Origin: Orobanche coerulescens
Lineage: Eukaryota; Streptophyta; Magnoliopsida; Lamiales; Orobanchaceae
Reading direction: 5' to 3'
NCBI GenBank assembly: GCA_033398695.1
Contig: CM065802.1
Span: 148,600,096 to 148,664,095 of the forward strand
Length of the DNA: 64,000 nt
Part shown: piece by piece, positions 15,763 through 49,410 of the stretch
Layout of the letters: each line of letters begins with the position of its first letter
How positions within the stretch are numbered: position 1 is the stretch's first letter
Program-made: the position numbers and the translations under genes
Notes under the pieces: model-generated
What the model saw: only the letters and a program-made list of their open reading frames with translations
Databases searched by the model: none
What the model was told of the DNA's origin: nothing

Positions 15763-17601
15763 TGTAACACCCTCAAGATGTTCGAGGTATATTACAGCGC
15801 CGTGAATTCCCTATATGGGACCCACCAGGCTGAACAAACATCATACTCATCGACTCACAGAACAACAGGATAACACCTCGTCATAAAGACGCCCAACAAA
15901 ATAATCCACCCGGTTCAACCGGTCAAACATAACACCATAATTCGACACAAACATAATAATCAACAATACAATCCAGACGAGTAAAAATTCTTAAGTACTC
16001 GAGTACTTCTATTAGTTCAAACAAAACCACAAAAGATAAAAAGATAGAAGACACTAAGACACCACTCGTGCACAATCATCACGCACGGCCATCATCCGCA
16101 TACTGGTCCAGCGCCAGTTCATCTCGATGAACCTGACCTGAAATTCATAAAACGAATTTCCCCAAAACGGGTCCCCAGAGGGGTTAGCAATTACGCTAGT
16201 ACAAGTAACCAAATGAACAACTTACATCTTACACATATAGTAATGCATGCAATCAAGAAAACATAGTTCCAAAACACTCATTTCCGGAAATGCCATAGTC
16301 AAATCACATTTGTAAAATTCACCACAATTAACCGTCGATCCACACCTCCGTGGACCCCTACCGAGACCCCGTCGGATCTAACCCGTAGTGGTTAAAAGCA
16401 AAGCTCGTCGATCCACACCTCCGTGGACCCCTACCGAGACCCCGTCGGATCTAACCCGTAGTGAGCATACACACACACACAATTTCTCATACACTACTAC
16501 TATGTCAAGATCGTAAGTTCATAAGGATACTTGCCTCGATCAAAAAGACGGTGACACGAACGGGAATGGAGGATCAAAACACGACCGCGAGAAACCGGCG
16601 GAAATGAACCTAACGATTTTAATAACACAATCACAACCACTTCTAAATGATTACGGAAATGGAATACACCCGGAAACCTGCCTACGATTCATGTATATTT
16701 GTATAAAAATAACAATGAGGGCGGACCAAGAAAATCGCCCGGAATCGCCTTAGCCGCGAAGAGGAGGAAGAAAAGAGAAATTGTGTTTATCTCGGTCAAC
16801 TCCCTGGTTTATATAACCAGGGAGTGTTAGCGCGTGCTAAAACCTCAAGGTTAGCGTGCGCTAACGGGATAAAATTCCAATCCATACAGTTAGCGTCCCA
16901 GTCCAGTAGCCAGATTTCTGACCGTTAGCGTGCGCTACTCGAAATGTAGCATGCGCTAATAACCTCTCGGTAGCGCGCGCTATCGACCAATAGAGTGCGC
17001 TACCTGGACATCAGCCGAGTCTAGAAGCTAACTGCCCAAAACTCACCTGACCCGTTAGCGTGCGCTAGCGTACAAACGTAGCGTGCGCTACCTGGCTCCT
17101 GACCGAGTTCAGTAGTAAACTGTCCAGTACTGGAAAGTCACGCTAGCGCGCGCTACCGAGCAACTTAACGTGCGCTAGTCTCCCGACATTAGCGTGCGCT
17201 AGACAAGGTAGCGTGCGCTAATCCGATAGTCCAGAGGGCTGGGAAAAAAACTGCCACTCCCAGGGCTAACTCGCTAGCGCGCGCTACGAAGTAAACATAG
17301 CGTGCGCTACAAAGGGACTTCTAGCGTGCGCTATGCAGAAAAATTAGCGTGCGCTAGGTACGGAATATAAACGGTCCACAACACCGGAACACGAACGAAA
17401 CATCAAACGGAACACCTCAAAACGCATCATAGCATAGAATGGATCCACGGCAACCCCGAAACGGTGGTTCCGCACAACAATTACGAGAATCAGATCAATA
17501 GATGAAGGAAAAGTTACACTGAAAGATACACGAGGGTCGCTACAATCGAGAAATACACCGAAATGAAAATACAAGGGAAAGAAAAAAATACGGATATTAC
17601 A
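15763..17601 (-). repeat. 3' LTR of gypsy copy B (1839 bp, internal deletion)
   Basis: TGTAACACCC ... TATTACA edges; matches 22489-24623 almost base for base. It lacks about 290 bp, at a junction near 16728, compared with the other LTR (the lost part is about 23456-23727). The junction lies in short repeated ccaagaaaatc-like sequence, which suggests slippage or illegitimate recombination. Two tandem repeats with ccacacctccgtggaccc lie at 16333-16390 and 16407-16464. Confidence 0.94.
16807..17356 (-). promoter_or_regulatory. U3 dyad array and TATA box of gypsy copy B (3' LTR)
   Basis: About 16 copies of TAGCGYRCGCTA-type dyads, at about 16827, 16850, 16924, 16945, 16968, 16990, 17054, 17076, 17143, 17166, 17188, 17207, 17272, 17296, 17320 and 17343. 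Clear sets of four are spaced 19-24 bp. Sets are separated by CCAGTA/CTGG elements (16903, 17123) or a related gtccagagggctgg (17228). TATA ttatataaac (minus strand) is at 16807-16818, downstream of the array on the element's strand. Confidence 0.8.
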
Positions 17602-17615
17602 TTCTACCCCTCTAA
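17602..17615 (-). other. Polypurine tract of gypsy copy B
   Basis: On the minus strand tagaggggtagaa directly precedes TGTAATATCCG, the 3' LTR start. Confidence 0.85.
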
Positions 17616-17636
17616 AAATAAGTTTCGTCCCGAAAC

Positions 17637-20600
17637 TTAAGAAACAAACAACTCAGGGTACCTAGCACGCATGCTATCCTCGGTTTCCCAAGTTGCCTCC
17701 TCGACACCGTGTCTCGACCACTGCACCTTGACCAAAGGTATGGTCTTATGTCTCAGTCGTTTCTCACGATGATCCAAAATCTTCAATGGACGCTCTTCAA
17801 AAGTAATATCCTCGGCGACATCAATCTCACCATAATCGATGACGTGACTAGGATCCGGGACGTATTTCCTCAGCTGGGAAACATGAAAAACGCTATGAAC
17901 ATGACTCAAGGCCGGAGGTAACGCCAAACGGTATGCCAACTCACCGACTCGCTCGAGAATCTCAAAGGGTCCAATAAATCTCAGACTCAACTTCCCTTTC
18001 TTCCCGAAACGAAAAACTCCCTTCGTCGGCGACACCTTTAGCAAAACGTGGTCTCCCACCTCGAATTCCAAAGGTCGACGACGGACGTCGGCATAAGACT
18101 TCTGTCGACTCTGGGCAGTCAACATCCATTCCCGAATTAATTCTATCTTCCGCCTCGTCTCTAAAACGACATTCGGCTCGGTCCCGACCAAATCGGACGC
18201 CTCATTCCAACAAATCGGTGATCGACATCGCCGCCCATAAAGTGCCTCATACGGTGCCATCCGAATGGACGCGTGCCAACTATTGTTGTACTTGAATTCG
18301 ATCAATGGCAAATGCTCCTCCCAGTCACTGCTCCAATCGAGAGCACAAGCACGCAACAAATCCTCGAACGTCTGGATAGTGCGTTCCGACTGTCCATTTG
18401 ACTGGGGATGAAAAGAGGTACTCAACTGCAAACGGGTGCCCAACGCCTTATGCACCGCCTGCCAGAAGTGCGATACAAAACGGCCATCACGATCCGAAAT
18501 GATAGACTTCGGAGTACCGTGAAGCCTCATAATCTGCGCGATAAACACACGAGCTAACTTCTCCGGGCCCCAAGTCTCCTTAATGCCCAGAAAGTGTGCT
18601 GACTTGGTCAGACGATCAACTATCACCCATACCATGTTCATGCCCGACCTCGATCTCGGCAAACTCGTAATGAAATCCATCGATATATCTTCCATTTTCC
18701 ATTCCGGGATGGGAAGTGACTGCAACAACCCAGCCGGTTGCTGATACTCGATTTTGACCTGCTGACAAGTCAAACATCTCGCTACAAACTGTGCGACCTC
18801 CTCCTTCATATCATTCCACCAGAAGTTCCTTCTCAAGTCCTTGTACATCTTACTCGAACCAGGATGAACGGAGTAAGGTGTAGCATGGGCCTCCCGCAAA
18901 ATACTCTGTCTCAACTCTGAGTCGTTCGGCACACAAAGCCGACTCTGGAATCTCAAAATACCATCCTCGTGAATCACAAACCCAGGAGACTTTCCCTTAA
19001 GAACGTTCTCTCGGATTTGAGTAATCATCGGATCCTCTAACTGCTTCAGTTTAATTTCATCGATCAAAGACGACGAAATCTCTAAGGCACAAAGTTGCCC
19101 GACAGTTCCCGGCAACAAAACCTCAACATCTAACTCGATCAAAGCCCGCTGAATCTCAGACTGAGACGTAAGGATCTCAAGCGTTCGCAACGCAATCGGT
19201 TTCCGACTCAAGGCGTCGGCCACGACGTTCGCCTTGCCCGGATGATAAAGGATTTCGAGGTCATAATCCTTAATCAGCTCTAACCACCTCGTCTATCTCA
19301 TATTCAGCTCCCGCTGAGTAAATATGTATTTCAGACTTTTATGATCGGTAAAAATCTGACATGCAGAGCCGAAAAGATAATGACGCCAAATCTTGAGCGC
19401 GAAAACGACTGCCGCTAACTCTAAATCATGAGTAGGGTAGTTCAGCTCATACGGCCTCAACTGTCTCGACGCATAGGAAATGGTCTTGTCGTGCTGCATC
19501 AATACGCACCCAAGACCCTGACCCGAAGCATCGCTATAAACGGCAAAACCCTCGTTGCCACATGGCAACGCCAAAACCAGGGCTGAAGTCAAATGCTTCT
19601 TCAGTTCCTCAAAACTCGACTGCCTCTCGTCATTTCAGACGAACTTCTCGGTTACGGAGCAAGCTGCGTGGCGGTGAGCTAGTTTCGAGAAACCCTCGAC
19701 GAACCTACGATAGTAGCCAGCCAAACCCAAGAAACTACGGAGTTCCTTCACATTCTTGGGCGGTGCCCAATCCAACACTGCCTCGATCTTCTGCGGATCT
19801 ACACGAACCCCCTCGGCTGAAATCACGTGACCTAGAAACATCACTTCCTTCAGCCAGAACTCACATTTCGAGAACTTCGCATAGAGTTGCTCGGTCCTCA
19901 AAATATCTAACACTACCCGCAAATGATGGGCATGCTCTTCCTCGTCCCTCGAATAAATAAGAATATCGTCAATGAAGACGACAACACAATTATCCAAATA
20001 CTCGATAAAGATTTTGTTCATCAACTGCATGAACACCGCCGGTGCATTAGTTAACCCGAAGGGCATAACTACAAACTCATAATGTCCGTATCTCGTCTGA
20101 AAAGCTGTTTTCGGCACATCGGACTCCCTCACCCGGAGCTGATAGTACCCTGATTTCAAATCAATCTTCGAGAACACCGCAGCTCCCTGCAACTGATTGA
20201 ACAAGTCATCAATTCTCGGCAAAGGATACTTGTTCTTGATGGTCACCTTGTTTAGTTCGCGATAGTCGATACACAAACGTAGTGAATCGTCCTTCTTCCG
20301 CACAAACAGGACCGGTGCGCCCCAAGGCGAGGCGCTCGGCCGAACATACCCCGACTCAAGAAGCTCACTCAACTGCTTCTTCAGCTCGGCCATCTCTGAA
20401 GGTGCCATGCGATATGGTGCCTTCGAAATCGGAGCCGCGCCCGCCTCTAACTCTATAGCAAACTCAACCTCACGATCTGGTGGCAATCCCGGTAACTCAT
20501 CAGGAAATACATCAGGAAACTCACTAACAACTGGAATTGATGAAAGCTCGACCCCACCATTCCCCGCCTTCAAGGCGTAACACCAATAATCCATACACCC

Positions 20601-21177
20601 CTTCCGTAGGAGTCTAATTGCCTTCAAAGAGTTAATAACAAGTTTCTGGTTTCCCCTCTTTCGCCCCGCGAAAGAGTGCTCGGTGCCATCCTCGGCTAAC
20701 ATAGTGATGATTCTCGTACGGTAATTCACGATCGCACCATGCCGTTCGAGCCAATCATCCCCAAGAATTAAATCCTCACCCTCAATTCCCACAACAATAA
20801 GATTAGAGAGCCAAGCCCTCCCACAAATAGTCACAGCACAATCTCGAATCTCACGGTCACCAACGATCCTATCGCCGCTAGGAAGTTTAACGATGAAAGG
20901 CTCGCATGGCGATAAACAATCAAGACCCAAACGGTGCACACATTCCAAAGACACGAACGAATGCATAGCACCAGAATCAAAAAGCACACTGACAGGATGC
21001 AAATATGTGAACAGTACCTGTGGCAACGGTAGCGGCTGGGTCATCGGCCCTCCTCATCTCATAAACGCGCGGGTGGGCGGAGCCGACACTGGAAGCTCCC
21101 CCTCGGCTGGGCTGACCCCGGCCTCTCCCTCGGCTAGCACTCGGTGGAGACTGCGGAGCAAACGAACCTTGATTCAC
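17637..21177 (-). pseudogene. pol: Pol polyprotein of gypsy copy B (one frame with two stops)
   Basis: Protease DSG at about 20978-20970; RT with FSKIDLKSG and intact FIDD (near 19965); RNase [12 protein letters not shown] (near 19540); integrase HHCC finger (H113, H120, C150, C153 of the last 528-residue segment) and D183, D244, E280, a proper D,D(35)E; chromodomain-like end VKVQWSRHGVEEATWETE. All blocks lie in one reading frame, broken by TGA at 19632-19634 (TGG in relatives) and TAG at 19290-19292 (CAG in copy A). Just before the first stop about 15 residues differ from copies A and C, as if two compensating indels occurred. Much closer to function than copy A. Confidence 0.95.
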
Positions 21178-21185
21178 GCTTGGTT

Positions 21186-22250
21186 ACCTAGGCGCTGGGA
21201 TGGAAGCCTGGGCATCAAGGATTTTCTCTCTCTCTCAGCACAGAAAGCAGCTTTGTGGCCTGGCTGGACACACCGATTACACGTCAGCAAAGGACTCAGA
21301 CATGTACGACTAATGTGACCCGGTCAACCACAGTTAAAACACTTCGTATCCCGAGAAGGAGTATTGGTAGTTCCACGAAAACCTGCAGTAGAACGGGCGG
21401 GACCACCGCCAGCTGAAAAGTTAGCAGACTGGAACTTCTGCTGACCCCCACCTTTGTGACCCGAAAAATTTCCGGCAGACTTTTGCTTCTTGCTCTCGCG
21501 AGCCGCCTCACTCGCCATCACAGACATATCGTAGGCAAGGGCCCTACTCTGATAATCCTTTAAGGTAGTGCAAACTAGTCCGGACATGTAATCACGAATC
21601 GACTGTTTCATCCGCCTGGAGAAATGGAAAATCTTATCGCTCTCTTCCCTAACTTGGGCCTTCACGAAGCCCAACTCCCGATTGAAATCGGCAATGGCAC
21701 AGGAAAGCAGGGGATATCCGGTGAGCATCAAAGAAGGCATGGACTCGGGCTTGTTTGACCGGCCACGGGCAATACTCGCTCTCCATCAGGTCCTTAAACT
21801 CGTCCCATGAAGCAGCACGGTCTCTTGGCTCAACGGCTTCCCACCAGTCGGTAGCATCCCGGTGAGAAAATCTTGGGCAATAGGGACCTTGCGGTCCTGG
21901 GACGATTGGTGGCGACAAAAACTTTGGATATCTCCTTGATCCACCTCCCGATCAATCGGGTCGAGGCTCTGGAAACCGGGAGGTGCATCTTGATGACATC
22001 CTGTAGCCAACGATCTCCGCCCTAGCGGCTTGGGTGGATCCGGGTTACGAACACTTTGAGCTATTGCCGCCATTTGGTTCACCATTTCTTTGCATAACGG
22101 CCGCAATACCAAGGTCGGCGCGCTCTGAGAAGAAGCATGGCTGTGACGGTCGCCGTCTTGCCGGCTCGAAGACTGCGGCGTGGCCGCCCCATTGCCCACG
22201 TCCCCGTGTCCACGACCACGACCGCGACCACGACCTCTTCCAGCATCTAT
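21186..22250 (-). pseudogene. gag: Gag of gypsy copy B (frameshifted)
   Basis: Starts with a DAGRGRGRGRGRG arginine-glycine stretch typical of these gags; the codon just before it is ATA (22250-22248), so the start may be lost. Blocks PPIVPGPQG, ATDWWEAVEPRD, then SDKIFHFSRRMKQSIRDYMSG are spread over three frames (changes near 21910 and 21740). Two zinc knuckles near 21340-21255 (CFNCG-stop-PGHISRTC and CNRCVQPGHKAAFC) have a TGA where CGA is expected at 21324-21326. A TAA lies at 21183-21185. The nucleocapsid part overlaps the start of the pol-encoding sequence without a gap. Confidence 0.87.
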
Positions 22251-22470
22251 ACTGGAGTTAAATAAGTAGCAAAAGCCATACGATGGTAAGTACAAGAAAA
22301 GAACAATCACAAATCGAGAATCAAAGGTACGATACAAGGGAATAAGGAATAGAGGAAGGAAAACTTACGGGCACTGGTAGTACCGGAATCATGGCAGCGT
22401 GACAATGATGTGCAAAACAAAACACAACAAGACCCAATAAACCGACAAGCTTAGGTATCCATAACCTAGT

Positions 22471-22482
22471 GCTCTGATACCA
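22471..22482 (-). other. Primer binding site of gypsy copy B
   Basis: gctctgatacca on the plus strand, six bases from the 5' LTR edge at 22489; initiator Met tRNA type. Confidence 0.93.
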
Positions 22483-22488
22483 TTTTTT

Positions 22489-24623
22489 GTAACACCCTCA
22501 AGATGTTCGAGGTATATTACAGCGCCGTGAATTCCCTATATGGGACCCACCAGGCTGAACAAACATCATACTCATCGACTCACAGAACAACAGGATAACA
22601 CCTCGTCATAAAGACGCCCAACAAAATAATCCACCCGGTTCAACCGGTCAAACATAACACCATAATTCGACACAAACATAATAATCAACAATACAATCCA
22701 GACGAGTAAAAATTCTTAAGTACTCGAGTACTTCTATTAGTTCAAACAAAACCACAAAAGATAAAAAGACAGAAGACACTAAGACATCACTCGTGCACAA
22801 TCATCACGCACGGCCATCATCCGCATACTGGTCCAGCGCCAGTTCATCTCGATGAACCTGACCTGAAATTCATAAAACGAATTTCCCCAAAACGGGTCCC
22901 CAGAGGGGTTAGCAATTACGCTAGTACAAGTAACCAAATGAACAACTTACATCTTACACATATAGTAATGCATGCAATCAAGAAAACATAGTTCCAAAAC
23001 ACTCATTTCCGGAAATGCCATAGTCAAATCACATTTGTAAAATTCACCACAATTAACCGTCGATCCACACCTCCGTGGACCCCTACCGAGACCCCGTCGG
23101 ATCTAACCCGTAGTGGTTAAAAGCAAAGCTCGTCGATCCACACCTCCGTGGACCCCTACCGAGACCCCGTCGGATCTAACCCGTAGTGAGCATACACACA
23201 CACACAATTTCTCATACACTACTACTATGTCAAGATCGTAAGTTCATAAGGATACTTGCCTCGATCAAAAAGACGGTGACACGAACGGGAATGGAGGATC
23301 AAAACACGACCGCGAGAAACCGGCGGAAATGAACCTAACGATTTTAATAACACAATCACAACCACTTCTAAACGATTACGGAAATGGAATACACCTGGAA
23401 ACCCGCCTACGATTCATGTATATTTGTATAAAAATAACAACGAGGGAGGACCACAACCAAACCCTCCCGATTTCGCAAAACTATGAAAATATACTATGAA
23501 TCCGTAGGAAAACTAATGATATTAACAAGATAATTCATATTCATCATGAATCCACCAACAAAACGAAATGAATCGGACGAAAATCCCAAAACCCCCAATT
23601 TATCCAAAAGTAGGGTTCTAAGAGATTTTACCTTGGATTAAGATGAAAGATTCGTGTTGATGTTGTTATAATACACCAAGAACTCAAGGAAGATGTTGGA
23701 TGAAATGATTGGAGGAAGAAATCGCCAAGAAAATCTCCCGGAATCGCCTTAGCCACGGAGAGGAGGAAGAAAAGAGAAATTGTGTTTATCTCGGTCAACT
23801 CCCTGGTTTATATAACCAGGGAGTGTTAGCGCGCGCTAAAACCTCAAGGTTAGCGTGCGCTAATGGGATAAAATTCCAATCCATACAGTTAGCGTCCCAG
23901 TCCAGTAGCCAGATTTCTGGCCGTTAGCGTGCGCTACTCGAAATGTAGCGTGCGCTAATAACCTCTCGATAGCGCGCGCTATCGACCAATAGCGTGCGCT
24001 ACCTGGACATCATCCGAGTCCAGAAGCTAACTGCCCAAAACTCACCTGACCCGTTAGCGTGCGCTATCCTACAAACGTAGCGTGCGCTAGCGTACAAACG
24101 TAGCATACGCTACCTGGCGCCTGACCGAGTTCAGTAGTAAACTGTCCAGTACTGGACAGTCATGCTAGCGCGCGCTACCGAACAACTTAACGTGCGCTAG
24201 TCTCCCGACATTAGCGTGCGCTAGACAAGGTAGCGTGCGCTAATCCGATAGTCCAGAGGGCTGGGAACAGAATTGCCACTCCCAGGGCTAACTCGCTAGC
24301 GCGCGCTACGAAGTAAACATAGCGTGCGCTACAATGGGACTTCTAGCGTGCGCTATGCAGAAAAATTAGCGTGCGCTAGGTACGGAATATAAACGGTCCA
24401 CAACACTGGAACACGAACGAAACATCAAACGGAACACCTCAAAATGCATCATGGCATAGAATGGATCCACGGCAACCCCGAAATGGTGGTTCCGCACAAC
24501 AATTATGAGAATCAGATCAATAGATGACGGAAAAGTTACACTGAAAGATACACGAGGGTCGCTACAATCGAGAAATACACCGAAATGAAAATACAAGGGA
24601 AAGAAAAAAATGCGGATATTACA
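22489..24623 (-). repeat. 5' LTR of gypsy copy B (2135 bp)
   Basis: Full-length partner of 15763-17601. Tandem repeats in the transcribed part lie at 23059-23116 and 23133-23189. The block 23250-23620 is strongly similar to 54985-55360 in LARD copy 2, although their U3 parts differ. Confidence 0.95.
23806..24378 (-). promoter_or_regulatory. U3 dyad array and TATA box of gypsy copy B (5' LTR)
   Basis: Same arrangement as 16807-17356: TATA at 23806-23817, then about 17 TAGCGYRCGCTA-type dyads up to 24378. It carries one extra copy near 24080, apparently a local duplication, with cctacaaacgtagcg and gcgtacaaacgtagc side by side. This LTR would drive the element. Confidence 0.8.
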
Positions 24624-24628
24624 CAAAG

Positions 24629-25029: not shown

Positions 25030-25466
25030 TTGTGTGCGTGCGACAATACAGTGTGCAGAAAGAAACATTCTCCCCCAGCACGGGGACGTGCTGTGATTTG
25101 GGTGGGGGAGGATGTCACGACCCGATATGTCGTGTCCGTGTTGACCGTCCAAATAAGGCATGCCTTCTGGTTAGCTTGCTACAAGAGGGGTAAAGGGGGC
25201 GAAATTAGCGTTAAGGCGTTGTTTGCCCGGATGCATGGTCTGGCCGAGTCAGGCATGCCGACCCGGTTTAGTCCGGAGAGCCTGTCGCTAGTTGAGGACT
25301 TGACTATGAAGGGGATCGTTGCTGGTAGGGCATAACTGGTCGGGGACTAATGCCGTCTCCATGATGAGCCCATGGTAGGGCGAAACCAGTTGGCATGCTA
25401 TGTGGGATAGGCTGGTCTCGGGGTGTGAGGGCCCCCGGGACGCCGCACGGGCTTCGGAACTCCCAT
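25030..25466 (+). repeat. Right arm of the 438-bp inverted repeat (LTR-like)
   Basis: Inverted copy of 15291-15728. On the plus strand gggtgggggagga (25101-25112) is followed by TGTCACGACCCG (from 25113) and about 354 bp that end at ggaactcccat, after which similarity to the left arm stops. The two arms thus look like two 3' element ends facing outwards. Confidence 0.75.
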
Positions 25467-26845
25467 TGTAAGTTGATGCAACAGTGAGAATTCTTGCGAC
25501 AACAACCAAGTTGACGAGGTGATGCCCGATAGGGGAAGCTACTCTGTTAGGCCTTCATTTGGGGTTCTTATGTTTTTAATGCTTATGTGTTATTTTAGAG
25601 GTGATTCTATATATATATATAGTTTGTATATATATTTTACTAAATTTATGAAATGAGCCCATGGAAAACTTTATCATACATAGTTTGTACAATATGCTAA
25701 AAGGTGTAGATGTATTTACTGTTAGAAAATTTATATGATTGTAAAAAAAAAAATCAAGCGACGAACAAACAAATCCAAACTGTGTGCAACGCAATAAACC
25801 AAAAAAATGGTATATCTACCTAAAAATTAATAAAATCCTACCGAGGCAGCCCAAGTTATACATTGTTGTATATTTTAGCCTCACCATCACGGTAACAACT
25901 CAACAATTTACTCAAACATTACACAATCGACAATTAGATACAATATAAAAAAGTTATGATAACATCAGAATCAAATCAACTAAAATAAATACAATACATT
26001 ACATATAACTAATTACATAGACTAAAATAAAAAGACAATAACAATAAAAAAACCTATAAACTTCTCTAAAAGGCATCTAAATTCCGCCATATGCTCATTC
26101 AACCGCACCAACATTACGTAAAAAATAAGTAGATATTCAACCAAAGACCGTGCAACGCACGGGTTGGATAAAATCTCGTAGGGCTTAAGTCTCTTCTTAC
26201 TTGCAGTAATTTGACTTTTACATCACTCAGCTGCTAATTTTGGCCATATTTTTTTATTAATATAAAAAATAGTGGTATATGAATATATTTTGGTTTATTA
26301 TAATATATATTTTTTGGGATTGACTATGGTGGAAACACCCTTAATGGTGAAATCTAGAAACCAATTGCATTATTAAGTAATTTCATTGCTTATTTGTTAT
26401 TATTTGTTGCATCAAGCTGGTCGCTAGTATATGCAACAAATAATGCAATAAAAAAAATACATAAATGCATATAATTCTACTCATCTACAGCCGTTAGATC
26501 GCTAATATCAATGGCCAACAAAAGTTTCTAAATTTCACAAGGTAATTAGTTTTCATATGATCTATTTCCTATATTTTTTAAATATTATTTTGTTGTATTT
26601 TTGTATAATAAAATATTTTAGTAGTTAAACAACTATACATTAACCGACGTAAATGTCGAACTGTTATAAAATATACTCCAGTTAGACCAAAAATAGTGGC
26701 GGCTACTTCTTCTTGGCCGACCACCACATATGAGAAGAAAAAAAGGAAAATTAACCATTTGTCTTGCTCTAATGGCCGGGTTCGAATCCTGCTAAGGACA
26801 CGAATTATTTAGAGCCTATGACCCCCAGTTTAGGCTGAGGGGGAG
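25467..26845. other. AT-rich intergenic DNA without genes
   Basis: No ORF with recognisable motifs. It holds ATATAT runs near 25607-25640, an A run at 25743, and an imperfect hairpin accgtgcaacgcacgggt at 26148-26165, like subterminal hairpins of plant Helitrons. A pol III B-box-like ggttcgaatcc lies near 26781. The last part (26830-26845) is a purine tract leading into the next LTR. Confidence 0.5.
26148..26166. repeat. Helitron-type hairpin remnant
   Basis: accgtgcaacgcacgggtt can form a stem of about seven pairs and resembles the GCCCGTGC...GCACGGGC hairpin at 33425-33443. No CTAG end was found at the expected distance on either strand, so this is at most a decayed end. Confidence 0.3.
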
Positions 26846-29800
26846 TGTAATATCCTAGAATTTCGCATTATTTTATCTGAGTTGTACTGTACAGAGTGGG
26901 AGCGACACAGTATGGGTGAATAATTTTGGGAACTGTGACAGACGTGCCAGTATATCTATCGAGGCTATATTTAATTCTAGGATATTAGATGCTTGATATG
27001 TTTTTTGATGTCGGATATACTGTATGAGTATTGTACAATTGTCATACTTGGTCGACAGTTGTGTTTGAGGATATCGTGCATCAGATGTATCGTATGAGAA
27101 TGTTATCGGGACGAGCACGTGTATTTAGCATGTCGCGTGTACGTATTCGGTATATTGAGACGGCAGACAGGAGCAGAAATGGCTAAGTATGAAAGCCATT
27201 ACGTACGCTACATAATGGAGCATACGTACGTAACTGAGCACGATTAACGTACATTAAGTTATGTACACTACGTACGTTAAGAAGATAATCGGACAGGATC
27301 GAGCTGTGGTCGGCAGGTGGGCCCGGTGTCGGCAGCTTTCGGCGCGGATGTGGACAGGCGAGTCAACTTTCAGTCTTACGTACATTAGGGATGCATCATT
27401 ATGTACGTTAAGAAAGTGTGTTCTGTAGCAAGTCAACTGTGTATTACGTACGCTACGGCGAGGTCATTACGTACGTAACACTAGGCGCGAAATAAGACAG
27501 TGAGCCCTGGATGTCGATTATGTATGCTATACAGGACATGTAGCGTACGTTAAAGAGGCTTACGTACGTTAAGGTTGGGTCTTAACGTACGTAACAAACT
27601 GTGCAGGTTATATATATTAAGAATTGGTCTTTCATTTCCTCACGAGAGGAAACACATTTCTTCCTCCCAAACTTCATTCCTCCTCACTCCTGGCCCTAAT
27701 CCTGACCCTTGTACCTTGGTTAAGACCTTGGGGAGTTGATTAGAAGCTTGAAGCTTGGAGTTCTTGATGTTTTTGGAAGTGTTTGATCTTTGGGATTCTT
27801 CTTCAAGAGGTATGTTGGATAACTCTTCTTGTTGATTCAGATTTTGATATTGTGTTGACGTTCTCCTTCGTATAATGATGGTTACGGTGTTGTTGTTGTG
27901 ATTCTTGAGGTTGTATGAATTTTATATTGAAGAACAAAATGATGTATACCTTGGGTTATGAATTAGATAATGGTTTAGATGATAGAACTCATCGAATTAG
28001 GTCGTTTTGTTGGCTACAAACATGATTATGGATTAATTCATGTTCTTAAAGAACTCTTGAATTATATATGTCGTGATTTATGGGATTTGGAAAGATTATG
28101 GTTAATTTCGGTATATGGTTATTCGTGATGAAAACCAGTAATTGAATTTCTATGAATTTACACAGATGAGCAATGTTAATCCGAAATTAAGATTGAAGTC
28201 GGAACCAAGAATGTTTAAGACATTGTTAGAATTATTGATTATCGAATTTCGGCTTATATTCGTATTGTTAAGAGTTGATATGGTCGGTTTCGTATGATCG
28301 AGATGTCGTTGAACCGTTGAGTTTGATTGGTTGGTTATATCGGTTGTTGACTGTTATTGAACGCATTGTTAATTGGTCATTGCGTTAGGTTGCGTTAAGT
28401 GATCGTTGATGATTAACCGTTGTGCTGCGATTGGAACTGGAGAATGCACGGATCGCCTTGGTCGGGGTTGCGGAGCTTGTAGATGAAGATGACGGGATTG
28501 GTAACAAATTCATCGTATTGGTATCGAGGCAAGTTATGCTTGCTCAGTTCATAATGTTTAATAAATGTTTCGTTTTCATTTCATTTATGATTCATATAGC
28601 AATGGTATCATGGAATATGAATTGTCGGGATGATGATATGTATATTATGCATGGACTGAGATAAATGGTAATGTATATAATTTTAAAGATGTCTAGTGGG
28701 AACGGAGACGCGAATTATATTTGGTCTATTGTACGAGAAGTTAAATACCGAGACTGGTTATCATGCCGATATTGAACTCGAGAGGGTGGTTTGGTATTAG
28801 TAATGGACTGCACTTCATTTTGGATTATTCAGATAACCGTGTATTCGTTCAAGGATGTTGGTCGTGGAAAGGTTAGCGTCTCCAGATTGAGGTAAATTAA
28901 TATTACTAGATTATGATAATCATCCTGTTGCATTATTGCATCTGTGTGTTGATACTTCATGTGGTTAGTGTGCATCATTATTTGTTACGTTTTGTGATGT
29001 GCTCAAACTGTGTTAGGGGATAAGACCTAAATGGCACCTACATTCCGGAGTATTCCTGTGAGATGCTTCCGTGACCCTTGGCTACGGCCTTGGGGTTTAT
29101 GTGTTAATATCATGTGCATTGTTGAGCATGCTGTGAACTGTTGTCTGACGAAATACGACATTGTGGTCATGTCGGTCTTTCATGATCGAGTTATCATTGC
29201 TCACTTGGAAAGTCTTATGATCCTTGTTGGATACGCGTTTCTTCGAGATTTGTTGTCATGTTGCATCGTGGCATATCTGGAGTTAGATACGTTCTGATCG
29301 TTCATGTGTAGGATTTTCGGGGCGGGCACGTGTAGCATATGTTGGTTTCGACCTCATATTGAACCGTGCACACGAGACGTACTTCGTGAGACTGATTAGG
29401 TACGAGACCAGACGTGTATCTGATTAATACCCGTGGTTGGCTTGTACACGGACACATGTCCGGATCGGGCGCATCGTGACGTCAATCTTGAGTCTTATTG
29501 ATTAGTCGTTCATAGTCCATGTACAATCGGATCTGTTCGATAGTCGGGTTTGTCTTTGAGATCCCATATGTGTTATTTGTATACGGTTGACGATTTTATT
29601 CTATCGTGTATCTGTCCCTGTCGATCCTTTATCGATCTCGTTTGGAGCTATCATATCGTTGGTCAATTCGTTAGTTATTGAACCTCTATAAATCTCGTTT
29701 GGAGTACCCTATCATTGGTAATATCATTCATTATTGATCCTTATTGATTCCGTTTGGGAGTTTGCCTTATCGTTGGTATTCTCGGTCGCTGGTACTTGAT

Positions 29801-32690: not shown

Positions 32691-32695
32691 AGCAT

Positions 32696-38288: not shown

Positions 38289-40980
38289 GTCGGGGTACTT
38301 AAACTATTTTCGCTTCTTATGTAAAATATCTTCGGACAAAGCTTACCAATTTTGTTCCCATAACCGTAGTGGACTGTTAAGCTCACAAAATAGCAAAATT
38401 GTAACAAACAAATCTCGTAGCTGCGCGCCTGATGCCCATACGCTTGCTTCTAATATAGCTTGTGTCCACTCTTTGTCATCACTGATTAATCCATATGCAG
38501 AGCAAGCCTCCTTAAATGTTTCGCATATTCTTCCATTGTGTGTCTTTATTTCTTGAAATGATCTAACCCCTTTAACAACGTTTAACAACATCCTTAGATA
38601 ATACCGCTCACCTGATGCGGGGTTACAATAAATGATGCGCCCAATGCATTCTCTTTGTTTCCGAGGCTGCCAAACTTTCTCTTTCTCATGCCACACATAT
38701 TTTGTTGGAATTTTAGCATAAGTGAGTTCCCTCGCATTTGCATCGCTTTTGTTTAGCTCAAACCACTCCGTAAACATCGTTTGTTTGATACTTTCCCTTT
38801 GTAGCAGTGCTGGTAAACTTTGTGAATCATGTAGTGTGATCGTGTTCTGATCTGGCAAGTGAAATGTGAGTTTCATGACTGATGGGTAGCAGTAGTGGAT
38901 GTCAAAACGCAAGATACGCCATACTGCTTCACACGGAGCTAAAAACCGACAATTCAAGTAATTTTTTATTTCATCAACCTGAACAATCTTTTCTTTTTCT
39001 GATTCTATCCCTGAAGTGACATTTTCTTGTATTATGATAGTTGCTCGGTTTGGGCCTTTGTTTAAGTATTTAAATAAGTACTTAATTGCCCTTGATCTAT
39101 TGCACCACTCAACATTAATGTGTGCCTGGTATCTGAGCAAAAGATAGCGATTGTATGGTACGACAAATGAGTTGTCAAATGTGAACTTTCCTTTTCTGGT
39201 AGAAACTTTATTGTTCCTTCGGCGGTAAACAGGGTACCCATCTTCATCAATCGTTGTTTCTGCATAAAATAACTTTGGGAAATGCTTGGCCCATTTTCCA
39301 TCAACGGTGCAAGCAGCATTTTTTGCCTTTTCACCGCACGGTCCATGGAGCATGTATTCTGTAACAGCTTTATATCCTTCTGGATCGTTGATTGGAGAGG
39401 GAATTTCAGCCGAGATTATATCATCTATATCCCTTGGGGTTTTGCATTTGTATATATCTTCAAGCCATACCAATATATGAGCGTGTGGGAGGCCACGTTT
39501 TGGAACTCGATCACGTAAACAACTGGAAAAAAATACGCAAACCAAGCTTGTATTAATATAAATCAGGAAAAAATAGATAATATTGATGGATAAGGTTTTT
39601 GTATCACCTGCTTGACATACTCCAAAAATCTGTTTTTTCATAATATCATCAAGCAGCTCATTTAACTTCATCTTGAAAACTCGGGTGCTAACTTCAGGTC
39701 GATCATGCGGTTTCTGCCAGGGAATATAAGATAACATTTCCGCAATTTCTGGACATTTTGGATTAGAAGTGAAAGTGATGAAGAGATCCGGATTGCCAAA
39801 TTGCCGACATAGAGCCATCGCATCCTAGTAGTTTTGTTGCATATATCTTGGGCTTCCTGTGAAGCTCGAGGGCAAAACTATTCTTTGGCCAATCGCTTCA
39901 GCTTTTGTATCTCCTCTTGTAACAGCGTCATATAGATTATGATAGAGGTCGACACACAAGTCATCTTGATTGTTCCTCGTCCATCTAAGTCTTTGCTCTT
40001 CAATAGCTGTGTAAGCATCCACCAGGAATTGCTGAAATAGGCGTCCACCTCGCAGTAAAGTAGTTCCTTCATTATCTCTATATTGAATTACATAACAATA
40101 GTACTCTCTCATTGTTAAGAAACCATGTTTCCTTTTTCTTTTGCCTGAATTGTTATGGTAAGGTATCTCTTCATGGAAGCCATCCTCTCCGTATGGAAAT
40201 AACAAAGGATACTGTAGTGCCATGTACGATGGATGCAATTCTGATATTCTTTCCGGGCCAAAGTTCTTGTTGTTTACAATAATATCTCTTGTTGCATTAG
40301 CATCACCAAAATCATTTGTTACTAAAACTGCCACTTCAGAAACACTTGGTGTGTTATATTGCCTTGGGTTTGTTCTTTGTCCAAGGAGGCGAAGTTGAAA
40401 GTCATATGAGTTATTTTGGTCACACCAATCTCTAGCCATTCGGAATGATTTGGCATGTAATCGAATTGATCTAACATATGAATGAGGCTTCTGATTATTG
40501 TTTCATCGGTCCCTTCTTTGGTCTGATTATCAATGAAAGCTGACATACGATTGCTGACTTCATTTTGTGTGTCAAAGAAGTAAAGTTGAGCGAACTTGGG
40601 ATGAGCCCCTTCTGCAGGAAGGAGAGACCCCATTTTGTGATATTTTTGACTATTTATTCTAAATGTATATGGCCCTTTTAGTTGATTTATTGAGTGACTA
40701 TTTTTCCTCCAAAAGATGTGAAGCAGAACATGCCATTATATACCCTGATTTGTTCTCTAAACTTTGCTGTGCCAGGATCATTAGAGTTTAACATCGTGCT
40801 TAATGGTGCAGGGGCTTCTTTGAATTTCGGTAAACGCACTTTACCATCTTGGCAGCACATAGAGAACGTAGGATTTGCGGTCTTGTTTGCTTTTTTACTT
40901 CTCTCTTCACGCCACATGTACGCATGACAGTTAGGACACTTGCTTGCTGGCGGGCCAAGGTTATGGTAAGAAACTTGCAA
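38289..40980 (-). pseudogene. Helitron Rep (HUH) nuclease region, broken
   Basis: N-terminal half of RepHel, which nicks and joins DNA. Blocks in order: a zinc-finger-like CPNCHAYMWREERSKK and SMCCQDGKVRLP (40920-40820), HPKFAQLYFFDTQNEVSNRM (near 40595), Helitron_like_N stretch ELHPSYMALQYPLLFPYGEDGF, then DLFITFTSNPKCPEI, the HUH motif LPHAHILVWL (His codons 39485-39483 and 39479-39477) and the two catalytic tyrosines in KYLFKYLNKG (about 39080 and 39068). An intron of 85 bp (39607-39523, GT...AG) fits the family sequence. Lesions: TAG at 39825-39827, a one-base shift near 39497, TAA at 38343-38345, TAG near 38306 and a frame change near 40430. Confidence 0.9.
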
Positions 40981-42140: not shown

Positions 42141-44509
42141 TGTAACACCCCAAACTAGGCGGATATTACAGTGCCGTGGACCCCCGACTGGGACCCACCA
42201 GGTGAATGAAAATTGATGAATTAAATAATATAATTGTAGTACCGAACCACATTATATTACAAAATACTCCGATGAGGAGCTTAAGTACAATACACCAGGA
42301 CAATACAGAATACTAGTATATTTTATATGAAGATAAAATACACCACCCTGAATAAATAAACGTCTCAAACGGAATTTGCAGCGGAAAATACAAATGACGG
42401 AAACGACTGAAATGACTGAAATAACCGGAAAGACTGGGGCCCCCTACTAGTATCAGTGGGACTCCTCGCCGTCAGCATGCTCTTCCCGTGCCTTTGCCTT
42501 GCCGTGACCTGAAAACAAAATCCCCCAACGGGGTCAGTTACATAGAACAACAATCCTCAAGGGTTGAAAATACACAATCATGATTTAACTGAAGTTATGA
42601 AATATCCTTAATTATGAATTACGCTGAAGAGGAGCATCATAGTATGCCCGTAGTGTTCTGTGCAAGTGTACAAGACGAATGACCGGACACACCCGTCCTT
42701 GTACCTAATTAGTCTCACGGAGTTAATCTTTACCGTGTGCACGGTCCAATGTATCGGTGAACCCAGTACATGACCATTGCGTGCTCGACTAAAAATTCTA
42801 CACATCCGCACCCGGCCACGCAATATGAACCCAGAAGGTCATATGAACGAGAATGACCACAATGAATATCAATGAATAATAATTCGACAAGTTCAAGAAT
42901 GACTCACCGAAATGGAAATAACAGTGAAGTGATTGATAACTCAATGAAATGATTGGAACCGCTGCTCGTGAATGAAGTGATCATTCGGCAATTACAAATC
43001 TCAATATGGTTAATACAATGATGAATGAATTATGATTATGAATGAACAACAACAAAAGGAATGAATATCCTTTTAACCGAGTAAGAATTAACTTATTCAA
43101 CAACGATGAAGAATATCCGTCCACGAACAACGTCCTAAATGAAATGTCGGTCGCTCGAACAACCTTGAATAACACAATTACCAATAATTCGATCATTACA
43201 TGAATCAAATACGATCATAAGCGACTCAAACGTCGATACAACAATACCCAAACTCAAATATATCGAAACCAACTCCAAGATGAGTATTTCAAACCATCAA
43301 AACACTTTCAATGATATCAATAATCCCATAGGAATCCACAATTCAATATTACAACAACGTCAATCGGAAATCCCCAAATTAACCGAAGTCAACCCCAAGG
43401 GTTCTTGATATAAATCCCCGAAATAGCCATTAAAATACATTTATCCAAGGTAGATAATCCATATCTAATATATTCGAACAACAATCCAAGCTTACACGAA
43501 GAAATCGGAAGGAAAAACCCAAAAATCCGAAATTCTAGATCCAAGAGATTAATACCTTTGATTTGATGCGATGAAGATGATGAAATGATGATTAATCCAA
43601 ATGATGAGCTTGAAGATGATGATAGATGAATACACCTCGAAGAAAACTCTCCAAATCGCCCGAAATCGCCCAAAACCGAAGAGAAAATGAGAAGGAATGA
43701 TAAATGACGAAATCTGGGCTACACTGTCCAATTTATAGTCACTCCAGGTTAGCGTGCGCTAGCCCTTGTTCGTAGCATACGTTAACGGGTATTTTGGGTA
43801 GTCCAGTACCCACTGACCGAAAACGGTAGCGCGCGCTACGTACCTTCTGTAGCGTGTGCTACGGCTGTACACTTAGCGTGCGCTAACCCCAAAATGTTAG
43901 CGTGCGCTAACGAATTATCTGATGCCCAGTACTGGAGTCCAGAACCTTCTGTCGTGCACTACAGCCAACAATTAGCGTGCGCTACTACACCAATTGCGTA
44001 CGCTAAAAACCACTCATAGCGTGCGCTATGAATTAATCCAATGCAGTCCAGTAGCCACTGGACTCAACCTGATCCGTCCTTAGCGCGCGCTACACCAAAT
44101 ATTAGCGTGCGCTACAACAACCCACTAGCGTGCGCTACTTACCATTCGTAGCGTGCGCTACTTATAACTCACCTGCAGTCCAGTACCTTCTGGACTGCAG
44201 CCAGGGTAACATTAGCGTGCGCTAATGCTGAGTGGTAGCGTGCGCTACCTGTACTCAATTAGCGCGCGCTAAAAAGAGTATGTAGCGTGCGCTACTCCTC
44301 ACGCACAGCCCACAATGAAAATGACAATGATGATAAACACGACACGAAACTCCAATTAGATTAGTGATGAATGACGATTGATACACAATACAATTACTCT
44401 GAACGATGAATACCATGATTGAATATGAGTGACAAATGATCATTAATGAGTGAAATTACTGAATGATAAATACTGAATGATAATTACTGAATTACAACCG
44501 GGTATTACA
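42141..44509 (-). repeat. 3' LTR of gypsy copy C (2369 bp)
   Basis: TGTAACACCCC ... GTATTACA edges. No partner LTR in the window. Contains TATA at 43731-43740 and the best-organised dyad array of the window upstream of it. Confidence 0.92.
43731..44296 (-). promoter_or_regulatory. U3 dyad array with higher-order repeat, gypsy copy C
   Basis: About 17 good TAGCGYRCGCTA-type dyads plus one degenerate copy near 43946, at 22-24 bp spacing. They fall in sets of four: 43825/43847/43872/43894; 43946/43969/43992/44014; 44076/44100/44124/44147; 44210/44233/44256/44280; and a half set 43747/43771. Between sets lie CCAGTA...CTGG dyads at about 43795, 43926, 44043 and 44176. The composite unit is therefore about 117-133 bp. 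TATA (actataaat on the minus strand) is at 43731-43740. Confidence 0.85.
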
Positions 44510-44521: not shown

Positions 44522-44539
44522 AAGAGAGTTTCGTCCCCG

Positions 44540-47500: not shown

Positions 47501-47865
47501 CCCCTGATTGAGTAATCTCACTGCTTTCATCAAATTAATGACCTTACCAGAACAGCCGGGATTACCTCCCTGAAACACACATTCAACCCCATCGTCTGAA
47601 ATGATAGTGATCATACGCTTACGGACACTAATGATGGCATCATGACGATCTATCCAATCAATACCCAAGATGACGTCGTCTCTGGCCAAATCTACTACGA
47701 TCAAGTCCGCTGGCCATGCACGACCATGAAGCTGAATCGGACAATTCTGAATCTCACGATTACCGATAATTCTTCTACCATCGGGAAGGCCAATGACATA
47801 AGGCTCACAATTAGTAGCACTACCCAGACGTAGTCTACTCAAACATGACTCGGAAATGAATGAAT
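44540..47865 (-). pseudogene. pol: Pol polyprotein of gypsy copy C (N terminus removed by copia insertion)
   Basis: One reading frame from the protease (just after the active site, next to the copia LTR) through RT ([13 protein letters not shown] intact near 46870), RNase H ([11 protein letters not shown]), integrase (H133, H140, C170, C173 and D203, D264, E300 in the 392-residue segment), to the chromodomain-like VKIQWSRHGVEEATWETE. Damage: TAG at 46193-46195 in the same codon as in copy B, TGA at 45005-45007 where copies A and B have Arg, and a two-codon in-frame loss in IGPF--LDRVG. The insertion separates it from gag. Confidence 0.95.
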
Positions 47866-49408
47866 TGTTGACTCAAAATGTATTTTGATGATTATTCCAT
47901 TCAAAACATTTAATTAGATCAATCTCAGTTCGATATTATATTGAAGGAGCTAAATAATGTTAGCGCACGCTACTCACCTCATAGTAGCGCACGCTATCGA
48001 GAAATGCATGTACAACCCAATTAGTCAGCTGTAGCCAAGTGAAGTCACCTGATGGATAGCGCACGCAAGTCATTCAACATTAGCGCACGCTAAGTAACTA
48101 CATTTAGCGTATGCTATACAATCAATATTAACGCACGATATCGTATCATTCCAGAGGACAGTGAGGTTTGGAAGGAAATCGGAAATGGATTTTGCGCACG
48201 CTACATACATCAACTTACGTACGCTAAATCAAGGATGTAGCGCACGTTATTACTCACTACTTGCGCACGCTACCGATATCAAGGTCAGTAGTCCAGTAGC
48301 TACTGGACTCAATACGTCAAGGACTCTACGTACGCTACACAGGGTAACGTACGTTATTGAATGAAATATTTAGCGCACGCTAAGGTATAGGCATTAGCGC
48401 ACGCTAAAAGGAGTCAGCATATTACCGTTTGATTTTCTACCGTTGGAAGGCAAGAGTCAATGAAGATCCGTGAAATCTGGAAAAGTTGGAATTAATTAAT
48501 GCTAGCGCACGCTATGCATACTTGCTAGCGCACGCTAAGCTCAAATCTAGCCATTGGATAAAGAGACGTTGGGGAGACAAACCAACATTTTCAAAGTCAA
48601 GATTGAAGTCCTATTGACCAGTCGATAACGCACGCTACGGATTCATAACTAGCGCACGCTAGCCATACAATTTTACCGTTGCAACATTCTTTGTGACCGT
48701 TCAGAAAAGCCAAGTCAAGGTCGATAGCGCACGTTAGTCGAAATTATTAGCGCACGCTAATAATATGTTTTTTAGTATTTGAAGGATGGCTCTCACCTAT
48801 AAATACCCAAAGGGCTTGGGTATCAAACACACAACTTCAAGCATACAAGCATACAAGCATACAAGCATTCTTGAGCTCAAATCGCTACTGATTACTATAT
48901 TATAAGTTGTGAGAAAGAAAGATACAAGAGTGATTTTTTTGTAATATCTATTATTCTTTGTATTCTTTCATTTGATTGTAAGTGTTGAATCATTTACACT
49001 TGAGCGTAAAAGAAACGAATCAAGAGTCACTAATCCGGTGTTATTAGGATCTTTGATCTGGCATTGTTAGGATTATATTCCCATATTCGTATAGTGAGGA
49101 TTATCTAGTTCCTATAGAACACTAGATAAACAAACATTTATATTGAGAGAGAGGTTGAGCTTGGACCGATAGAAGACAAGCGATTGTAACGGTTGTTAAC
49201 TCGGACCGATAGAAGACGAGTCAAGACTGTGGTTGTTCTTGAGCCAATAGAAAAAGAAAGTCGGAGAGAGGACGTAGGCAAGTTGCCGAACCTCTATAAA
49301 TCTTTGAGTCTTTAAATTCCGCACTATCTTTTATTTATTCGCAAGAAATTTGGTTATTCCGCATTACCACTATTCAACCCCCCTTCTAGTGGTAAATTTA
49401 TCTCTTCA
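47866..49408 (+). repeat. 5' LTR of the copia element (1543 bp)
   Basis: Starts TGTTGACTC; the first 313 bp match the 3' LTR start at 63688 with few differences. It ends ttca at 49408, two bases before the primer site. The array of dyads is followed by TATA at 48798-48805. Confidence 0.92.
47955..48805 (+). promoter_or_regulatory. U3 dyad array and TATA box of the copia LTR
   Basis: About 20 dyads, mostly TAGCGCACGCTA, at about 47958, 47983, 48055, 48080, 48103, 48126, 48190, 48213, 48236, 48260, 48324, 48343, 48368, 48392, 48501, 48523, 48622, 48648, 48722 and 48746. They come in sets of four or two at 22-26 bp. A perfect gtccagtagctactggac dyad lies at 48288-48305. TATA tataaata is at 48798-48805. 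This matches the gypsy arrays although the element belongs to another superfamily. Confidence 0.82.
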
Positions 49409-49410
49409 GT

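Follow-up and report, generated by a model that had tools for sequence, protein, structure and literature searches.

A palindromic motif array before the TATA boxes of Ty3/gypsy and Sirevirus-like Ty1/copia elements in Orobanche coerulescens, a putative binding array for a dimeric activator

Why should LTR retrotransposons of two superfamilies carry the same short palindrome, in ordered arrays, in front of their TATA boxes? The window, i.e., the whole stretch of 64,000 nt of Orobanche coerulescens DNA that was analysed, contains 112 sites matching TWRCGYRCGYWA with at most one mismatch (88 of them exact), while the expectation from 100 dinucleotide shuffles of the window is 3.75 (sd 1.9, largest 10). 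The arrayed palindrome that the first-pass annotation had reported in gypsy and copia LTRs is therefore real and more extensive than noted, and a comparison with shuffled sequence, run here within the window, confirms the enrichment. All 112 sites fall into ten clusters, which cover 3,977 bp; arrays are indeed present in the range 16807..48805 given earlier, but five of the ten clusters lie outside it.

The distances between neighbouring sites (n = 111) are dominated by 23 bp (33 cases) and 24 bp (25 cases), in agreement with the proposed spacing near 23 bp. A strong tendency to sets of four had also been claimed; in the six arrays used for counting (D 5' LTR, S, B, C, copia 5' LTR and env; sites with up to two mismatches) it is seen in 14 of 26 sets, but ten others are pairs and two are triples. 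The 12 flanking columns on each side of the site hold at most 0.29 bit of conservation, so the 12-bp site, and not a longer repeat, is the unit that is kept.

The gypsy-type features are as follows.

13 to 335, plus strand: array cluster 1, gypsy D 5' LTR, 10 sites (up to two mismatches), consensus TTACGTACGTAA, TATA at 350
8421 to 8737, plus strand: array cluster 2, gypsy D 3' LTR, 9 sites, TATA at 8752
12463 to 12543, minus strand (inferred): array cluster 3, a single four-site set within the internal region of a gypsy-like element
15763 to 24623, minus strand: gypsy A/B element with both LTRs, flanked by the target site duplication (TSD) CAAAG, PBS at 22471 (reverse complement)
16828 to 17356, minus strand: array cluster 4, 3' LTR of A/B ("gypsy A"), 16 sites, sense TAGCGCACGCTA, TATA from about 16815 downwards
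23827 to 24378, minus strand: array cluster 5, 5' LTR of A/B ("gypsy B"), 17 sites, TATA from about 23814 downwards
27199 to 27594, plus strand: array cluster 6, LTR S (starting at 26846), 12 sites in register, consensus TTACGTACGTTA, TATA at 27609
43750 to 44294, minus strand: array cluster 7, gypsy C LTR, 17 sites, sense TAGCGCACGCTA, TATA from about 43737 downwards
53582 to 61690, minus strand: gypsy-type element E, inserted in the copia linker with TSD TTTTC

"Gypsy A" and "gypsy B", formerly listed as separate elements, are the two LTRs of one. The LTR at 26846 had been called solo; the purine tract AGGGGGAG at 26838-26845 abuts it, so that S looks like a 3' LTR or a truncated element. 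Coding matches to B, C or D were sought 5' of S and none was found, and its gypsy nature is thus deduced from LTR similarity only. The element around the 12463-12543 set is probably a minus-strand, non-autonomous, gypsy-like one. A/B, C and D may be chromoviruses. Gypsy pol domains are clear in this set; B and C are homologous (68-74% amino acid identity over pieces of reverse transcriptase, integrase and chromodomain), and D shows 68% in alignment with C over the chromodomain region, the chromodomain matches being weak and under the Pfam cut-off (E 2e-4 in A/B, 0.0037 in C). Element E has no TWRCGYRCGYWA site with up to one mismatch; it carries the palindrome CTATCGGCCGATAG and partial copies of it upstream of its TATA (about 60900).

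The copia features are the following.

47866 to 49408, plus strand: copia 5' LTR, nested in gypsy C
47961 to 48759, plus strand: array cluster 8, copia 5' LTR, 20 sites, consensus TAGCGCACGCTA, TATA at 48798
49437 to 53570, plus strand: copia open frames, with gag, integrase and reverse transcriptase matches up to 52985
61734 to 61988, plus strand: array cluster 9, internal, before the env-like gene, six sites upstream of the TATA (61936) and one downstream
61980 to 63324, plus strand: env-like gene, spread over two stop-to-stop frames (61980-62507, 62428-63324)
63678 to 63685, plus strand: terminal polypurine tract (PPT) AGGGGGAG, first base 10 bp before the 3' LTR
63688 to 64000, plus strand: copia 3' LTR, truncated where the window ends; array cluster 10 at 63783-63962

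The element at 47866-64000 looks like an env-containing Sirevirus (Ty1/copia). The definition of Sireviruses includes the position of the PPT octamer relative to the 3' LTR (PMC2829016), and AGGGGGAG starts here 10 bp before it. The 5' junction, CA/GTTGG/TATCGGAGC at 49407-49422, is identical to the Sirevirus CA/ATTGG/TATCAGAGC in 14 of 16 positions. Exact copies of AGGGGGAG number two (63533 and 63678), fewer than in any element of the published table, where Sireviruses have three to five PPT copies in the linker (PMC2829016). The LTR also carries CTATAAATA. No Pfam match was obtained for the last of the copia open frames (52986-53570), the best 120 of 7987 matches listed bear generic names only, and a search for relatives of the pol in viral contigs gave three pattern matches, none confirmed.

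Orientation is uniform wherever the centre is CA or TG: read in the direction of the element's transcription, such centres are CA 59 times and TG never (A 12, B 12, C 12, copia 5' 16, copia 3' 6, env 1); the two LTRs of one element are not independent in this tally, which excludes the 12463-12543 array, whose strand is inferred and whose two centres would be CA if minus and TG if plus. Gypsy A/B, gypsy C and the copia element have one oriented 12-mer, TAGCGCACGCTA, in transcription sense, and the variants listed earlier as TAGCGTGCGCTA for gypsy on the minus strand and TAGCGCACGCTA for copia on the plus strand become identical when so read. The D and S arrays have all centres TA and may form a second subclass.

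TATAWA starts 14 bp after the last site in D, 12-14 bp in A/B, 14-16 bp in S, 12 bp in C, 17 bp before env and 38 bp in copia, the chance of its starting 10-20 bp downstream of a random point being 1.1%. The first-pass statement that each array lies directly upstream of a TATA box on its own strand is borne out for all of these, but not for the 12463-12543 array, which on its presumed strand lacks a TATA within 90 bp and has one 30 bp off on the opposite strand.

The arrays contain another element, GTCCAGTA, present 13 times in the window compared with 1.27 expected. Twelve of the 13 copies lie inside arrays, and all twelve are in the gaps between site sets.

24144 to 24157: A/B element, overlapping halves GTCCAGTACTGGAC between site sets of the 5' LTR
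17122 to 17135: other LTR copy of A/B, one half with a mismatch
44046 to 44063: gypsy C, inverted pair GTCCAG, 6 bases, CTGGAC, centre 32 bp from the flanking sites
44178 to 44195: gypsy C, another inverted pair, centre 32 bp from the flanking sites
48291 to 48308: copia LTR, GTCCAGTAGCTACTGGAC, centre 32-33 bp from the flanking sites
61848 to 61864: env array, everted form

The D and S arrays have no clear second motif. This second shared motif had escaped the first-pass annotation.

The reading that we favour starts from the observed site numbers, orientation and spacing, the proximity to TATA, the second motif and the presence of an array at the env promoter. To judge from these sequence features, the arrays are most likely a putative binding array for a dimeric activator. 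We put at roughly 0.55 the probability that they are enhancer blocks read by a dimeric factor, with gypsy and Sirevirus-type elements using one address. They would act upstream in the LTR promoters, and at the env-like gene's own promoter in the Sirevirus-type element. A sequence-specific factor, most likely host-encoded, would bind each 12-bp near-palindrome as a dimer, and the sets of two or four bound dimers, together with a second factor on the GTCCAGTA pairs in the gaps, would make up one assembly that ends 12-38 bp from the TATA and promotes or licenses transcription. Gypsy families and the env-containing Sirevirus-type element of this genome would thereby be served by the same address. 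A role confined to the LTR, such as one in RNA packaging or integration, would not predict an array before the TATA of the env-like gene. In homologous gypsy elements the spacers are beyond alignment while the sites persist.

The dimeric factor suggested earlier fits the phased near-palindromic sites before TATA in both superfamilies, but the "two helical turns" attached to it were inexact, the mean distance within sets being 22.9 bp, or about 2.2 turns at 10.5 bp. We rejected clean helical phasing: besides this step, the periodicity between sets is moderate and non-specific (R 0.55 at 10.5, 0.58 at 11.0; n 20). Compensatory symmetry between half-sites was not found within families (2/11, p 0.96; 3/10, p 0.35; 6/7, p 0.06; 80 sites). 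No plant factor matching the motif was identified, and for a NAC-type reading of the half-site TWRCGY, which we considered, there was nothing decisive among the matches listed.

Other readings of the same arrays have to be weighed against it. Retrotransposon U3s often carry subrepeats and the sets could be duplications, so that a chance repeat might have been amplified in each family without any function; with only 12 bp kept from site to site, and the motif and its orientation recurring in distinct families as well as at another promoter, this is very improbable. The arrays could instead work as nucleic-acid structure, with U3 RNA hairpins from paired sites feeding small RNAs or with the cores adopting unusual DNA. 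Purines and pyrimidines alternate in the consensus core RCGYRCGY, 18 of the 24 one-mismatch sites differ by a C-to-T or G-to-A change within a CpG, the usual mark and here a sign of past CpG methylation, and the palindromes in the regulatory region of maize Sirevirus LTRs are hotspots of small-RNA mapping (PMC5311732). Silencing, however, gives no reason for keeping the sites, and the narrow TATA distance, the uniform sense orientation and the array at the env promoter are left unexplained, so that we find this account unlikely. A more doubtful one still makes the factor element-encoded: the env-like protein of the Sirevirus-type element would work in the nucleus in a VANC-like manner, activating its own LTR and gene or countering their silencing, and gypsy elements would use it in trans. 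The env-like gene does sit behind its own array; its relatives (22 aligned) begin with a basic stretch, and the first 45 residues of nine of them contain 8-10 K/R against 3-6 D/E. Hydropathy maxima over 19 residues in these nine are 1.2-1.8, one being above 1.6, in keeping with the lack of a clear membrane helix, and the protein model predicts a long helix at 367-419, a possible C-terminal coiled coil, at low confidence (mean pLDDT 54). Comparison with solved structures gave 12 chains, mostly coiled coils, at E 0.028 or weaker. The targets of VANC21 are likewise dense same-orientation motif arrays in non-coding regions (PMC5735166). Against this, a search for known DNA-binding domains in the env-like protein found none (its first frame alone has a weak PF20167 match, E 0.0017, under the cut-off), all 25 relatives at E 0.001 or better are from Orobanche, and 4 of the 13 Sireviruses that bear repeated-motif (RM) boxes lack env, so that arrays of this type do not need it (PMC2829016).

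The sharing of the array by the two superfamilies may stem from exchange between them or from recruitment of a shared factor. It had been argued that dissimilar spacers rule out common descent; this does not hold, since the spacers of the homologous gypsy B and C are no more alignable than the C and copia ones (masked spacers, best local score 28, z 4.5, for B-C and 35, z 5.3, for C-copia, both hits within the second motif), and lost spacers are therefore no argument against it. Among 42 U3 pairs compared with the motif masked, ten had a z of at least 3, these two included (D5-S 6.7, A-C 5.2, env-X 4.3, S-X 3.9, B-env 3.7; A-env, B-copia and copia-env about 3.0). We rejected spacer homology as the source of these values: of eight alignments inspected, five (C-copia, A-C, B-C, B-copia, copia-env) consist of the second motif, B-env and env-X are TATA-like runs of 11-12 bp, and D5-S is a 35-column stretch. 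The array would, under exchange, have arisen once, in gypsy or in Sirevirus, and then crossed to the other superfamily by recombination or by template switching in reverse transcription of co-packaged RNAs, after which the spacers decayed and the sites stayed. C and copia have in common the oriented 12-mer and the second motif, which matches at 19 of 20 bases and in both is centred 32-33 bp from the sites to either side of it. When the two arrays are anchored by their last site, 11 of the 17 positions coincide to within 2 bp (gap-shuffle p 0.0011, set-preserving p 0.0048; 20,000 shuffles, 1,000 for other pairs). This makes exchange a live alternative. The position agreement is suggestive only: C-copia was the one of 15 array pairs that stood out in the anchored test, and the match is near the limit after correction. 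D5-S gave p 0.045 and 0.058, and the same test fails to flag B-C (p 0.63 and 0.66) despite their homology; with free offset (200 shuffles) p was 0.03 for B-C, 0.015 for B-copia and 0.02 for C-copia. Set order from the TATA is 2,4,3,4,4 in both B and C but 2,2,2,4,4,4,2 in copia, and C and copia spacers have no residual similarity beyond the second motif. We hold exchange tentatively, at odds well short of even, and since it is compatible with the same function these odds overlap with those of the shared dimeric factor.

If the shared-factor reading were confirmed genome-wide, one cis-regulatory address in two retrotransposon superfamilies would explain the joint activation of unrelated elements; two unrelated kinds of element may answer to one putative switch protein. 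It would also supply a defined probe for the factor behind Sirevirus RM boxes and test the movement of LTR promoters between superfamilies as cassettes. The far-reaching version, a two-motif block of TAGCGCACGCTA sets and GTCCAGTA pairs that transfers across superfamilies as a cassette and is switched on jointly by one reader, possibly a nuclear env-like protein, is a speculation that we think improbable.

Among known systems, the stress-response boxes of Tnt1, Tto1 and ONSEN are repeated host-factor sites in LTR U3s, with motifs other than those described here, and we know of no ordered array of them common to superfamilies. The exact motifs gave no literature match with a plant title, and no title among the matches listed (open licences only) dealt with one motif common to gypsy and copia LTRs. 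EBNA1 of Epstein-Barr virus is a dimer. The stretch removed as its binding site at Qp contains TAGCGTGCGCTA (PMC2921154), a likeness in working only, in that a viral protein reads a region with this dyad. Kingdom and setting are different, nothing points to descent, and the present elements give no evidence of a protein of this sort. The VANDAL transposons do not belong to the LTR elements. The VANC arrays of Arabidopsis VANDALs are also dense, one-orientation short motifs in non-coding DNA that evolve with the family, but the motif is YAGTATTAY and no palindrome, its binder is known and element-encoded, and it has no tie to an LTR TATA (PMC5735166). The only candidate here is the env-like gene, with no known DNA-binding domain.

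The closest parallel is the RM boxes of Sireviruses, high-copy LTR palindromes shortly before the TATA, nearly all with CpGs, with further copies before env where an element has that gene, and with flanks diverged between elements; their role was left open (Bousios et al. 2010, PMC2829016). The arrays described here are likewise palindromic, in eight or more copies (20 in the copia LTR) and clustered upstream of TATA, and seven sites at 61734-61988, six of them before the TATA, precede env. In 12 of 13 elements, Tnd-1 being the exception, the RM box has a CGG-CCG core, and RM boxes are described as missing from the remaining Ty1/copia elements of that study, which compared Ty1/copia only (PMC2829016). 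The core here is CGYRCG, the sites stand in sets mostly of two or four at 23-24 bp and are accompanied by another motif, and Ty3/gypsy elements that have gypsy pol carry these sites too. Such arrays before TATA and env are thus already described as Sirevirus RM boxes, while what is new is a motif without CGG, a grammar made of two motifs, and the use of that grammar by Ty3/gypsy and Ty1/copia elements alike.

The 12-bp near-palindrome TWRCGYRCGYWA is present in the window in 88 exact copies and in 112 copies at no more than one mismatch, the expectation from 100 dinucleotide shuffles being 3.75 and the largest shuffled count 10. All 112 sites are confined to ten clusters occupying 3,977 of the 64,000 bases, and beyond these clusters only matches at two mismatches (28) were found. 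Five clusters fall within the range 16807..48805 to which the first-pass annotation had assigned the motif, while the other five lie outside it. The site columns hold 1.0 to 2.0 bits and the 12 flanking columns on each side at most 0.29 bit. Neighbouring sites of one set (a group of two to four close sites) are separated by 22.9 bp on average (sd 1.5, n = 56; 23 bp in 29 cases and 24 bp in 16), and in six arrays 14 of 26 sets comprise four sites, 10 two and 2 three. All of this site evidence comes from a single 64-kb window. The main features concerned are as follows.

15763-24623, minus strand: gypsy A/B element, primer-binding site at 22471, flanked by the duplication CAAAG
47866-49408: 5' LTR of the copia element
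53582-61690: gypsy-type element E, duplication TTTTC, nested in the copia linker, LTRs of about 2.7 kb, short internal region
61980-63324: env-like gene of the copia element, two frames

Gypsy A and B, initially described as separate elements, are the two LTRs of one element with CAAAG on both sides. Their identity is 99.3% over a 966-bp stretch but 94.3% over the 899 bp that hold the arrays, a difference perhaps due to accelerated decay of CpGs within the arrays or to conversion. A 438-bp inverted repeat (15291-15728 and 25030-25466, 97% identical) flanks the element, whose integrase piece matches SH3 and also, weakly and under Pfam's cut-off, the chromodomain. Gypsy C (minus strand) agrees with A/B at 68-74% on the amino acid level over the compared pieces; for gypsy D (plus strand) the values against both are 57-77% in most pieces, 43-47% at the protease end and 30% in one gag piece, its other gag piece having no match elsewhere in the window. 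The D 5' LTR contains an insertion (963-2312) with 250-bp inverted repeats (1012-1260 and 2069-2317, 96% identical) and a 204-codon open frame on the minus strand without a Pfam match. The LTR at 26846 (S), putatively gypsy-type as judged only from the LTR, has a purine tract directly before it; it is not the clean solo LTR it was taken for.

The copia element starts at 47866 within gypsy C, whose pol frame stops at this point, and extends past the window end. It appears to be a Sirevirus carrying an env-like gene, as judged from this gene, the octamer position and the 5' junction: the purine octamer AGGGGGAG begins 10 bp 5' of the 3' LTR, and the junction matches the published Sirevirus junction at 14 of 16 bases. 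Its two octamer copies, however, fall short of the three to five in the table of PMC2829016. In one env-like frame PF20167 is matched weakly (E 0.0017, which is under the cut-off), in the other not at all. Relatives of the second frame at E 0.001 or better number 25, every one of them from Orobanche (47-65% identity), and of 22 scanned, 21 match PF20167; a broomrape-type host is thereby suggested, though not proven. The copia and gypsy pol relatives span many plants (best 120 of 7987 for each).

The proposed position of the arrays just upstream of the TATA box in both gypsy and copia LTRs was borne out. On the sense strand the last site precedes TATAWA by 12-16 bp in gypsy-type LTRs (D 14, A/B 12-14, S 14-16, C 12) and by 38 bp in copia; TATAWA starts 10-20 bp downstream of a random point in 1.1% of 20,000 draws. 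The env-like gene's own TATA is preceded, at 17 bp, by another array of TWRCGYRCGYWA-type sites. The tenth cluster, a lone set of four at 12463-12543, departs from this pattern: its element, gypsy-like and probably non-autonomous, has it in the internal region, and the presumed strand shows no TATA up to a distance of 90 bp.

Read in sense, every CA-or-TG centre of the listed LTR and env arrays is CA and never TG: 12 each in A, B and C (minus-strand LTRs, thus TG on the plus strand), 16 in the copia 5' LTR, 6 in its 3' LTR and 1 in the env array. LTR pairs count one event twice, so the independent arrays are B (12), C (12), copia (16) and env (1); the 12463-12543 set (2 centres), with its strand only inferred, is left out. 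Since sense centres are uniformly CA, TAGCGTGCGCTA and TAGCGCACGCTA, listed earlier as separate dyads, are one oriented 12-mer. This uniformity shows that the site is read directionally or was spread by duplication. D and S have a TA centre in 26 of 26 sites and may form a separate subclass.

A second motif, GTCCAGTA, has 13 copies in the window (1.27 expected), 12 of them within array blocks, between sets. These 12 occupy nine places (A and B LTRs counted separately), in six of which the pair GTCCAG...CTGGAC is found at no more than one mismatch. For copia and two of the gypsy C gaps, the pair centre lies 32-33 bp from the flanking site on either side; the pair is self-overlapping and off-centre in the A/B element and everted upstream of env. 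No clear copy exists in D or S.

Part of the element E LTR is 85-88% identical to the A/B LTR over 206-392 bp, the outer LTR type being common to both, but the U3 of E has no TWRCGYRCGYWA site at up to one mismatch. Another palindrome, CTATCGGCCGATAG, stands just upstream of its TATA instead (one full and two partial copies in the right LTR, partial copies in the left), which suggests that the motif before TATA may be swappable within one gypsy group. The window also holds Helitron remains (36939-40502, minus strand; Helitron_like_N and PIF1 helicase matches in separate frames) and direct repeats at 31014-31431/32274-32691 (96% identical) and 33429-34052/35601-36215 (90%).

The arrays are best read as what would be a protein-bound enhancer block upstream of TATA, because the TATA distance is narrow, the orientation single, two promoters of one element are so equipped and only 12 bp are conserved. 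The near-palindromic form suggests a dimeric factor, although a test for half-site covariation found none. CpG transitions account for 18 of the 24 one-mismatch sites, so the inserted copies were probably methylated. It is conceivable that the reader is the element-encoded env-like protein, since members of its family have a basic N-terminus, are predicted to carry a long helix at the C-terminus and show no clear membrane helix; however, a search of this family for a DNA-binding domain found none, and the structural model is poor (mean pLDDT 54).

The unlike spacers had been held against common descent of the arrays. They are no argument against it, because the homologous B and C spacers align no better than those of C and copia: the best local scores of masked spacers are 28 (z 4.5) and 35 (z 5.3), respectively, both falling on the second motif (19 of 20 identical between C and copia). 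When the arrays are aligned on their last sites, 11 of the 17 sites of C come to lie no more than 2 bp from one in copia (p 0.0011 by gap shuffling and 0.0048 by set-preserving shuffling, 20,000 shuffles, 15 pairs tested), which is suggestive only; the B-C pair, of certain descent, does not stand out by this measure. An exchange of arrays between the gypsy and copia superfamilies is thus a tentative explanation, somewhat doubtful on balance, beside which stands the independent recruitment of the same factor by both. Under either, the sites are what was kept.

Among the matches listed in the open-licence literature for the exact motifs or for palindromes shared by LTRs, no title concerned one motif common to gypsy and copia LTRs. 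A stretch removed from a herpesvirus promoter as an EBNA1-binding site contains the exact dyad, according to PMC2921154, a likeness that we take as a coincidence of use and not kinship. Small RNAs have been mapped to the LTR palindromes of maize Sireviruses (PMC5311732). The RM boxes, repeated motifs of Sirevirus LTRs (PMC2829016), belong to one kind with the present arrays: 12 of 13 elements have the RM core CGG-CCG, and of the 79 linker copies in Sireviruses with an env gene, 77 are placed upstream of it, as is our pre-env array. For arrays in a single orientation that are bound by the element's own protein, the closest case known to us is that of the VANC targets (PMC5735166, PMC10398659).
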